Source: Anaerolineae bacterium
GTDB taxonomy: Bacteria; Chloroflexota; Anaerolineae; Aggregatilineales; Ch27
Direction: 5' to 3'
Assembly: GCA_013178165.1 (NCBI GenBank)
Contig: JABLXG010000004.1
Location: 372,001 to 436,000, forward strand
DNA length: 64,000 nt
In this document: positions 16,137 to 19,425 of the stretch, piece after piece
Layout of the letters: each line of letters starts with the position of its first letter
Numbering within the stretch: position 1 is the stretch's first letter
The notes under the pieces: model-generated
What the model was told of the DNA's origin: nothing
Databases searched by the model: none
The model's input: the letters and a program-made list of their open reading frames with translations, nothing else
Made by a program: the position numbers and the translations under genes

Positions 16137-17927
16137 TTAGCCGCCGCGACCCGCTGCCTGCAGCTCAGGATCGATGCTGATCCAGTCGTAATGGTTGCCG
16201 CCGAAGAGGCCGTCGGTCTCGATCGGCTTGTCCAGCCAGGGGGCAAGCTGATAGAAGGAGGCAGGCATGAACAGCGGCATGATCGGGTGCAGACCGTCGT
16301 AACCGAAGAAGTCCTCTTCGATCTCACGGTAGAGGGCCGCGCGAACTTCTGGATCGCTTTCGGTCTGGGCCTGGATGATCTTGTCATCGACCTCATCGCA
16401 TGGGCGCATGAAGTCGTTGCTGGATTCGCAGTGCAGGCCAGCATCGAAGAACCAGTTGTTGGCGTCCGCGTAGTCCGGCGCCCAGCCCAGCGACCACAGA
16501 TTCGGGCGCTCTTCGGTGGGCGTTTCAGCACGGGTGGTCTGCAGCAGCACGGAGAATTCCTGCTGCTCGATCGTGAACAGGCTTGGGTCGCAACCCAGGA
16601 CGTTCTCGATCTCAGCCTGCAGGAACTCGGCGTAGGGCGCCCAGCCCTGGTAGGTCACCACGCTCAACTCCGGGAAGCCCTGGCAGTTGGGATAGCCGGC
16701 GGCTTCTATCTCCGCCTGAGCGTAGGCCGGATCGTAGCCGATGCCTTCCCCGTTGATGCCGACTTCGTTGACGTTGACCGCACCAAACATGCCGGGCGGG
16801 ACAAAGTGCATCATTGGCACGCCGCGACCGCCGCGAATCTCCGAGACCAGCAGTTCGCGATTGATCGAAGCGCTGAAGGCGCGACGGGCATGCACGTTAT
16901 CAAACGGCGGTTTGTCGTGGGCGAAGCCGAAGTAGAAGACGGACAGGCTGAGCACCTGCACAACCTGCTTGGACAGTTCCGGATCGGCCAGGACATTCTG
17001 CAGCTCGGCTGAGGGGACGCCGGAGAAGTCGATCTGGCCGTCCTGGAAGAGAGCGTAGATCGTGCCCGCATCTTCCACATTGATGTCCACGAAGCGCTCA
17101 ATGTTGCCAGGCCCCTGCAGGTCAGCAGGCAGGAGCGGGTTGCGGATGAGCACCTGGCGGACGCCACTTTCCCACTCATCCAGGACGAACGGGCCATTGG
17201 TGACGATGTTACCGGGCTGCGTCCACGTGCTGCCGCCCACCGGCTCGCCAAACTGCTCAATGACCTCGCCAGGGACCGCGCGCAGCACCCACATCCCGCT
17301 CATCGAGAAGAAGTAGCCGATGGGGCCGGAGAGGGTGATCTTCAGCGTGGTGTCATCGGGCGCTTCGACGCCGATCGCCTCGAAGCTTTCCGGCGTGACG
17401 CTGGCCGGGTCCATCTTGTAGACCTCCAGGCAGCCAGCAATGGTGGAGCCAACGACCTCAGCGTATAGCGAGGGGTTGTTGGGGTCGCAGGCGCGACGGA
17501 TGCCGGTCACAAAGTCGCCAGCAACGACCTTGCGCAGTTCGGTGGCGGTGTCAGTCGCCGGGTCCCACTTTACCCAGGGCACATCATCGCGGAGGGTGAA
17601 AGTCCAGGTGTAAGTAGCTTCATCATAGGACCAGGACGTTGCCAGTTCCGGCTCAATCTGCCCGGTGAGGGGATTGTTGTTGGTGAGGCCCAGGAACAGA
17701 TTCTCGATGTAGTCAATCGAGACACTGTCGGTCGCCACCTGAGGGTCGAGAGAGGAAATCAGGGAGCCGCTGTGTTCCGCGGTGTAATGGGTGATGTACT
17801 CTTTTTCCTGCTGCAGCAGGCCGGTAAAGGTGATCTCGGCGTCAGAAGCAAAAGTGGGCAGCGCGCCCACGATCATCGTCACGATGATCACCATTGCGGG
17901 TAGAACCCGGAGGCTTCTCTTGAACAT
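16137..17927 (-). CDS. Peptide/nickel-type ABC transporter substrate-binding protein
   Basis: 596 residues of the SBP_bac_5 family: signal peptide (MFKRSLRVLPAMV then a hydrophobic stretch, likely cleaved after ALPTFA), then LDPQVATDSVSIDYIENLFLGL-like N-terminal strand, LAT.W..de.tytW.FtLRdDV and the NGPFVL and RRAFSASINRE signatures of oligopeptide-binding proteins. It would capture peptides or similar ligands outside the membrane. There is no permease or ATPase gene beside it; the gene is monocistronic with its own promoter and terminator, so it must work with transporter subunits encoded elsewhere. The start has a strong GGGAGGAG ribosome site. A long structured leader precedes it. Confidence 0.93.
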   Translation of the reverse strand: MFKRSLRVLPAMVIIVTMIVGALPTFASDAEITFTGLLQQEKEYITHYTAEHSGSLISSLDPQVATDSVSIDYIENLFLGLTNNNPLTGQIEPELATSWSYDEATYTWTFTLRDDVPWVKWDPATDTATELRKVVAGDFVTGIRRACDPNNPSLYAEVVGSTIAGCLEVYKMDPASVTPESFEAIGVEAPDDTTLKITLSGPIGYFFSMSGMWVLRAVPGEVIEQFGEPVGGSTWTQPGNIVTNGPFVLDEWESGVRQVLIRNPLLPADLQGPGNIERFVDINVEDAGTIYALFQDGQIDFSGVPSAELQNVLADPELSKQVVQVLSLSVFYFGFAHDKPPFDNVHARRAFSASINRELLVSEIRGGRGVPMMHFVPPGMFGAVNVNEVGINGEGIGYDPAYAQAEIEAAGYPNCQGFPELSVVTYQGWAPYAEFLQAEIENVLGCDPSLFTIEQQEFSVLLQTTRAETPTEERPNLWSLGWAPDYADANNWFFDAGLHCESSNDFMRPCDEVDDKIIQAQTESDPEVRAALYREIEEDFFGYDGLHPIMPLFMPASFYQLAPWLDKPIETDGLFGGNHYDWISIDPELQAAGRGG

Positions 17928-18163
17928 GTATTGCTCCTCCCAGAGACTTTATGTACGGAACAAAGGCAAAACAACCCGTTGCCGGCCAGCCTGCGCCCCG
18001 GCAAGCATGGGTGAGGGGGTGATCTCGGCGGTAGCGCTCTCCTTTCCGTGCCCGCAGAACATGCTTAACACTCTTTGGAGAGAACATCTATCTGGCGGCC
18101 ACAGGTTCGCCCGTGCGCGCGACACGGCCTGTGACGCTTACTCTCCGCCAGCCGAAAGCGGAT
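17928..18163 (-). promoter_or_regulatory. Long structured 5' leader, candidate cis-regulatory RNA
   Basis: About 236 bases between the predicted transcript start and the binding-protein ATG, with no convincing gene. On the minus strand it contains a nested hairpin (18092-18151: stems CTGGCGG/CCGCCAG, CACAGG/CCTGTG and CCGTG/CACGG), a long-range pair CTCTCC/GGAGAG (18077-18082 with 18037-18042), and a terminator-like hairpin (17979-18004) followed by TTGTTTT. I do not recognise a known riboswitch class. This layout is what a riboswitch or attenuator would look like, but only base pairing by eye supports it. Confidence 0.45.
17968..18004 (-). terminator. Terminator-like hairpin inside the leader (possible attenuator)
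   Basis: 7-bp stem TTGCCGG/CCGGCAA (17998-18004 with 17979-17985), 12-base loop, then CGGG and TTGTTTT. It lies about 40 bases before the binding-protein start codon, so it could stop transcription conditionally. Confidence 0.4.
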
Positions 18164-18169
18164 AGGCTT

Positions 18170-18199
18170 ATTATAGACAGAAACGGGCTACAAAAACAA
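18170..18199 (-). promoter_or_regulatory. Promoter of the peptide-binding protein gene
   Basis: Consensus TATAAT (18170-18175) on the minus strand with TTGTTT (18194-18199) 18 bases upstream. It lies between the chrA stop and the structured leader. Confidence 0.5.
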
Positions 18200-18291: not shown

Positions 18292-19425
18292 TCAGCCAAC
18301 CAGCCAGCGCAGCAACCCCATGATTGCACCGGTGATGATCAGCCAGGTTGCGTTGATTCGGAGTCGGATCAACAGGACGGCTGCTACCAGGGCGATGATC
18401 ACCGTAAGCCCATCGACCAGTGCGCTGTGGACCAATTCGACGGTGACAGCGGCCATCAGTCCCAGCGCCGCGACATTCACCCCGTCCAGCAGCCCACTCA
18501 GCCAGGGGGACCGGCGCAAACGGGGGATGAACGGGTTGGACAGCCAGACGAAAACGAACGAGGGCAGGAACATGCCCAGGGTAGCCAGCACCGCGCCCGG
18601 CGTGCCAGCGACGAGAAAGCCGATGAAGGTGGCCGTGGTGAATAGCGGGCCTGGCGTGAACTGGCCTACCGCTACCGCATCAAGCAGCTGCTGGCTGGTC
18701 AGCCAGCCCAGCCGCTCTACAAAGTCATTCTGCAGGAAAGCCAGCAGGACATAACCGCTGCCATACATCACCGCACCAATCTTGAAGAAGGTCAGGAACA
18801 GGGTGGCGAGCGAGACCGGCACGGCTGAAGTCGCCGCCGGGACCAGCAGCGACCACGGCAGGCCCAGCGCCGAGAGGATGTAGCCCTGTCCGGGCCAGCG
18901 CCGCAGCCGCGCAGCGTTCCGGGCCAGCATGACCAGCAGTCCGCCGCCGAATAGCAGCACAATCTCGTTCAGCCCAGCGAGATAGAGCAGGAACACAGCC
19001 ACACCGATTCCGGCCAGCAGGCCATCCCTGACCGCGGCCCTGAGTAATCCCCACAGGGCGCGCACAATCACGGCGATGATCACGGGCTTGATGCCGTAAA
19101 GCAACCAGGTGGCTGTCGGGGTTGATCCGTAGTGCACGTAAAGCACGGCCAGCGCCAGAACGATGGCTGCCGCTGGCAGCACGAAACCCGCACCTGCCGC
19201 AACTGATCCCCGCCAGCCGGCCTGCACATAGCCGATGTGGATTGCCATCTCAGTGGAATTGGGTCCCGGAATGAGGTTGGTCGCGCCCAGTAGATCGAGG
19301 AAATGCGCGTCGCTGAGCCAGCGGCGGCGGACTACGACTTCCTCTCGGAACAGGGCAATGTGCGCGGCTGGCCCGCCGAACGCGGTGAAGCCCAGCTTGA
19401 GGAAGAGCCGGGCGACCTCACCCAC
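18292..19425 (-). CDS. chrA: Chromate transporter ChrA, two-domain form
   Basis: 377 residues from the GTG at 19425. It is very hydrophobic, with about ten to twelve membrane segments in two homologous halves. The first half has FTAFGGPAAHIALFREE and NLIPGPNSTEMAIHIG; the second has FFKIGAVMYGSGY and VGQFTPGPLFTTATFIG, the paired signatures of CHR family proteins. It exports chromate in characterised members. The GTG has only a weak ribosome site; a perfect AGGAGGT sits 5 bases before an in-frame CTG at 19479, which would add 18 residues. It follows polA closely and may share its transcript. Confidence 0.93.
   Translation of the reverse strand: MGEVARLFLKLGFTAFGGPAAHIALFREEVVVRRRWLSDAHFLDLLGATNLIPGPNSTEMAIHIGYVQAGWRGSVAAGAGFVLPAAAIVLALAVLYVHYGSTPTATWLLYGIKPVIIAVIVRALWGLLRAAVRDGLLAGIGVAVFLLYLAGLNEIVLLFGGGLLVMLARNAARLRRWPGQGYILSALGLPWSLLVPAATSAVPVSLATLFLTFFKIGAVMYGSGYVLLAFLQNDFVERLGWLTSQQLLDAVAVGQFTPGPLFTTATFIGFLVAGTPGAVLATLGMFLPSFVFVWLSNPFIPRLRRSPWLSGLLDGVNVAALGLMAAVTVELVHSALVDGLTVIIALVAAVLLIRLRINATWLIITGAIMGLLRWLVG

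Follow-up and report, generated by a model that had tools for sequence, protein, structure and literature searches.

A candidate ribosome-binding leader element, comprising an orphan Shine-Dalgarno sequence and a covarying hairpin, ahead of a peptide-binding protein gene family in Chloroflexota

The stretch of DNA analysed here (the window), 64,000 nucleotides of contig JABLXG010000004.1 from an Anaerolineae bacterium (assembly GCA_013178165.1; 4.19 Mb in 52 contigs), carries on its minus strand a gene for a 596-aa SBP_bac_5 peptide-binding protein (16137..17927), and the leader of this gene is the subject of this report. The leader holds two short conserved blocks, both read on the minus strand: a Shine-Dalgarno (SD) sequence, AAAGGAG, which no start codon follows (block 1, 18039..18045), and a hairpin motif (block 2, 17978..18012). 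The gene product, an exported protein with a signal-like N-terminus, matches PF00496 (SBP_bac_5; E 4.3e-54) and has OppA proteins as its closest solved structures, in line with an initial annotation of the leader, made from the sequence alone, which had named a peptide-binding protein downstream. Translation is served by a separate SD, GGAGGAG (17934..17940, minus strand), a sequence that is common among relatives. The same annotation had proposed a consensus promoter, TTGTTT-18-TATAAT (18170..18199, minus strand), and this promoter, of sigma-70 type, is present in the sequence: its elements (TTGTTT 18199-18194, an 18-nt spacer, and TATAAT 18175-18170) give the top score among the leaders scored with our own matrix, with a predicted transcription start at about 18163. 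A simple consensus scan missed this promoter because TTGTTT fits the -35 consensus at only three of six positions. The -10 box reads TATAAT in a genome of the same genus (G001) and in one of the same family (G003), and TATACT in G002. The leader is single-copy in the host genome (G000), where six further matches (16-34 bases, E 0.04-1) look like chance.

Leaders were compared after an ortholog search of 60 relatives and the host genome, from which 30 loci were taken, and the addition of 58 named loci. The named relatives are metagenome-assembled genomes of Chloroflexota, two of which carry the label Aggregatilineales. Block 1, with the consensus RAAGGAG, is conserved in orthologs across one Chloroflexota order; it is present in 25 of 29 elements, and in 19 of 21 once near-identical elements are dropped. 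Among 19 non-redundant elements, its mean pairwise identity is 0.90, versus 0.31 in the spacer. The block is complementary to the 3' tail of 16S rRNA (..CACCUCCUUU), and the host 16S rRNA itself ends in ..GGATCACCTCCTTT, which is likewise complementary to AAAGGAG. A start codon lies 4-12 nt past block 1 in three of 19 leaders, with 2.9 expected by chance, and none is in range in the window leader, where the real start site is about 115 nt downstream. Because it is complementary to the 16S tail and is followed by start codons only at chance level, we conclude that block 1 is an SD that does not look made to initiate.

Block 2 has the motif CC-NN-GCU-N-[GCCGR]GGC-N-GG[YCGGY] and was delimited by alignment and by a covariance-model match; it is located 25-30 nt downstream of block 1. 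Its hairpin (17981..18002, minus strand) pairs 18002-17998 with 17985-17981. Where block 1 is present, the GCU of block 2 falls 29-36 nt past the first G of GGAG, and the stem starts about 33-40 nt past GGAG. The two halves of block 2 show identities of 0.80 and 0.76 in the non-redundant set, its loop 0.31 and the sequence downstream 0.36. In the five-pair stem, 98.1% of cells are paired (22 sequences), three of the five pairs have changed on both sides, and the covariation score was reached by none of 500 shuffles; covariation among homologues, which the initial annotation had named as a check, is thus present for this stem. A further locus, L151, found later by the model, shares with L022 a U-A pair at one position of the stem. 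In an alignment anchored on both blocks this stem is the sole consensus helix, with no further conserved helix. A pseudoknot between the upstream CC and GCU and the loop was weighed by visual inspection; there is almost no variation in the GCU and GGC columns. The block 2 alignment contains ten invariant columns, loop GGC among them, and the invariant loop, together with the upstream GCU, suggests a specific contact.

The initial annotation had recognised no known riboswitch class in the leader, and the Rfam searches gave none either: neither the window nor 12 relatives matched Rfam at the gathering threshold, and the sub-threshold hits (STnc420, D12-methyl, Six3os1_3, and Dictyostelium_SRP) were all far below their own thresholds and none was credible. 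As a conserved RNA motif, block 2 is new, statistically supported, and absent from Rfam. It corresponds to a hairpin that had been described as terminator-like (17968-18004); the hairpin exists, and no other structure in the leader is as well conserved, but a terminator function is improbable, because the U-rich tail that follows it is limited to G000 and G001 among the 29 elements.

The covariance model used to map the element was built on block 2 alone because the length of the spacer between the two blocks varies. Over 154 genomes of the order it gave 37 matches, 30 of them ahead of this SBP_bac_5 family (29 viewed as loci and the thirtieth, G037:C82:57402, viewed via L091); of the other seven, four were examined and none had such a gene downstream. 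When the search was widened to 396 genomes of the class, matches appeared in 16 genomes, and none of the ten of these that lie outside the order had a gene of this family downstream. A pattern search made beforehand agreed with this. Within the genomes searched, the element thus accompanies a single gene family and occurs in families f1, f4, f5, and f8 of one order. At one locus (L043, G027:C47:66000-82500), at least six paralogous genes for solute-binding proteins (SBPs) stand in tandem and the element precedes only some of them. Leaders of SBP genes in distant Anaerolineales carry AAGGAGGUGGU in a comparable position but lack block 2, and six such leaders (L108, L111, L113, L119, L124, and L130) have GGAGGUGGU-type orphan SDs about 80-100 nt upstream of the start, again without block 2.

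Orphan SDs are not restricted to this gene family in the host genome. With SBP genes chosen by Pfam, control genes taken from 19 stretches plus the window, and an orphan SD defined as a stretch of 7 nt or more from AAAGGAGGTGATCC that includes GGAG and lies 22-250 nt ahead of the start, 18 of 32 SBP leaders (index gene left out) were positive, compared to 7 of 186 non-SBP controls (Fisher p 1.5e-12). At a threshold of at least 8 nt the counts were 16/32 and 1/186 (p 1.3e-14), and when the index gene was included and the control set was not purged they were 19/33 and 9/190. The reversed motif was found in one of the 32 SBP leaders, and shuffled leaders gave a mean of 1.5 positives. These orphan SDs lie 47-149 nt ahead of the SBP start, and for two of the 18 a start codon is in range. 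Genes were called with a simple in-house script, so that single start sites may be wrong. Exact copies of AAAGGAGGTG occur at 13 places in the host genome, one of which is rRNA, and eight of the 12 others precede SBP-type genes, as judged from translations read by eye. In G050 (f4), four of seven non-rRNA places precede genes that match host SBPs, and a fifth precedes a gene for an exported SBP-like protein. Orphan SDs are therefore strongly associated with SBP genes as a group in the host genome, and they probably raise the expression of these genes. Among the open-licence papers listed in literature searches, none shows, by its title or the opening of its abstract, an orphan SD on SBP leaders or in Chloroflexota.

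Other copies of such sequences were also observed. At L177 (G000:C1:185553), a gene resembling 2-isopropylmalate synthase has AAAGGAGGTG about 130 nt upstream, and a nearby ATG opens a 58-codon frame, a possible leuA leader. At L175/L187 (G000:C26:21066-21080), GAAAGGAGGTGATCC, complementary over 15 bases to the 16S end region, stands ahead of a 10-codon frame and then an SDR-type gene. In G050:C3, two copies of GGAGTGACGAAGAAAGGAGGTGAAAA (L296 and L298) lie about 9 kb apart, neither ahead of an SBP gene.

We consider the chances about even that the leader is a ribosome-binding 5' element resembling the stabilizing SD (STAB-SD) of Bacillus. The STAB-SD of Bacillus thuringiensis cry3A, near position -129, is described as not starting translation and as able to interact with 16S rRNA, and a bound 30S subunit as stopping RNase J1 (PMC4113751). 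A strong SD, even without a start codon, is likewise named in a second study as a common determinant of long-lived Bacillus leaders (PMC3997798). Like the cry3A element, which is SD-like, complementary to 16S rRNA, non-initiating, and about 100 nt before the start codon (PMC4113751), block 1 is an SD-like 5' untranslated sequence complementary to the 16S end (..CACCTCCTTT). Unlike the cry3A element, the leader described here belongs to nutrient-binding-protein genes of Chloroflexota, a conserved hairpin follows block 1 at a near-fixed distance, and a 5' end beside the SD is not known. The aprE leader of Bacillus subtilis, which combines a 5' stem-loop with ribosome binding, offers a second parallel, as the window leader also begins with a hairpin; this 5' hairpin was, by contrast, not found beyond the genus, and hairpins are not enriched at orphan SDs. 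With the riboswitch and candidate-RNA families of Rfam the leader shares a conserved hairpin with covariation, but it matches none of them and occurs with one gene family only.

We infer ribosome binding and mRNA protection, as in the STAB-SD, and also a role for block 2. The 3' tail of the 16S rRNA in a 30S subunit would pair with block 1, and the parked subunit would not initiate, as no start codon follows. It would then stop RNase J, a 5'-3' exonuclease, from degrading the mRNA, keep a ribosome near the real start, or both, and the outcome would be a long-lived mRNA for an abundant solute-binding protein. RNase J is encoded in the host genome (TIGR00649, 581 bits versus a cut-off of 400). 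Block 2 would be a family-specific add-on whose stem lies just past the estimated leading edge of the parked 30S subunit, since the usual 30S footprint puts this stem just beyond it; the hairpin probably fixes the parked subunit in place or is a contact for a regulator.

Several observations weigh against a STAB-SD-like role. A STAB-SD needs a nearby 5' end, and block 1 lies about 118 nt from the predicted transcription start in the window (9-12 nt in some relatives), so that mRNA processing must be assumed here. Predicted transcription starts do not cluster near orphan SDs genome-wide, and hairpins, which had seemed to precede orphan SDs, proved on testing not to be enriched there. Block 1 is not specially open in folding models (mean unpaired 0.48, versus 0.47 overall). 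In G118 (f2), a genome of the same order, only one of six non-rRNA copies of AAAGGAGGTG precedes an SBP gene. To our knowledge, nothing like block 2 accompanies a STAB-SD in the Bacillus literature.

Two rival explanations appear unlikely, to a similar degree, while still deserving consideration. The first is that the orphan SD acts in ribosome loading or standby, holding a 30S subunit for sliding or hopping to the real start and thus raising the initiation rate rather than the lifetime of the mRNA. This explanation draws on the same sequence evidence as the STAB-SD-like element, and the true SD in several relatives has GCUC...GAGC on either side and is perhaps partly folded; the distance to the real start is, however, long, the two sites are separated by a conserved hairpin in the window leader, and known standby sites are unstructured and do not depend on an SD. 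Among L132-L156, in families f4 and f8, the true SD often stands within GCUC-N-GGAG-GAGC, which could form a small hairpin at the ribosome site. A regulated pairing of block 1 with the GCUC preceding the true SD was rejected by eye as inconsistent.

The second is riboswitch-like control, in which blocks 2 and 1 would form a small ligand or protein site that governs ribosome access or mRNA stability, perhaps sensing the transported peptide or an amino acid. The ten invariant columns, including the loop GGC, and the strong covariation suggest specific recognition, and the element is confined to one gene family. Against this, the anchored alignment supports a single 5-bp helix and no aptamer-like fold was found; moreover, the element serves one orthologous family with no second regulated gene, no conserved terminator, and no Rfam relative. 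The genome-wide occurrence of orphan SDs ahead of SBP genes favours ribosome binding over ligand sensing.

A leader peptide, with block 1 as the SD of a short upstream frame whose translation controls the gene, is very improbable: start codons are in range in a small number of leaders, among them L143 (ATG) and L141 (ATG, with a stop after four codons), but neither a conserved start codon nor a conserved frame follows the SD, and such codons are at the chance level given above, rare at the genome-wide orphan SDs, and absent from the window leader.

Equally improbable is a transcription attenuator, in which the leader would fold into a regulated terminator. In G003 (L010 / L149), a 12-bp hairpin followed by a U-tract, TTTTTGCTTTTTT, lies between the promoter and block 1 (z -2.3), and L150 carries GAGCCC..GGGCTTTT; G000, G001, and G002 have no equivalent of this hairpin, and block 2 is not a conserved hairpin followed by a U-tract, since its U-rich tail is found in just two genomes. 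The G003 hairpin, the only convincing one of its kind, is preceded by a segment, GGACAGTTG, that is similar to its 3' arm, and the arrangement resembles a terminator that may have an antiterminator; transcription attenuation may thus act in some relatives.

The remaining structures named in the initial annotation fared less well than block 2. Its GC-rich nested 5' hairpin (18092..18151, minus strand) exists, with a minimum free energy of -27.4, but its stability is ordinary for its base composition (z -1.47; 20 of 200 shuffles equally stable). Outside the host it was seen only in G001, and its role is doubtful. A long-range pair, in which CUCUCC (18077..18082, minus strand) can pair with GGAGAG (18042-18037, overlapping block 1), is present as a 6-bp pair, but was seen only in G000 and G001, identical in both. 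Shuffled versions of the full 248-nt leader are as stable as the leader itself in 186 of 200 cases (z +1.43), and overall stability was rejected on this basis as a sign of structure. A riboswitch or attenuator composed of the parts that had been named is thus unsupported, as the core of the leader is a short hairpin with an orphan SD and the U-tract is not conserved. The annotation was right in sensing an unrecognised, conserved, apparently regulatory leader; what it missed was the conserved orphan SD (18045-18039) and the exact stem of block 2.

With regard to gene context, a chromate transporter (18292-19425) sits between polA and the SBP gene in the window, while in G003 (L075) polA, the SBP gene, and argF are adjacent, unlike in the window. 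No permease gene was seen beside the SBP gene in the window, L075, or L078, with open reading frames read by eye.

A broader proposal, to which we hold only tentatively, is that these leaders represent a new class of cis-acting mRNA element, in which a non-initiating SD would park a 30S subunit on SBP leaders as a group and, in one family, a hairpin beyond the leading edge would act as a switch between hold and release. Solute-binding proteins are needed in far more copies than their transporters. If true, the proposal would provide a simple, testable answer to how high SBP copy number is achieved outside the model phyla, by a rule that marks about half of such genes in one genome, and it would widen STAB-SD-like control, now a matter of a few Bacillus genes, to a gene class in Chloroflexota.
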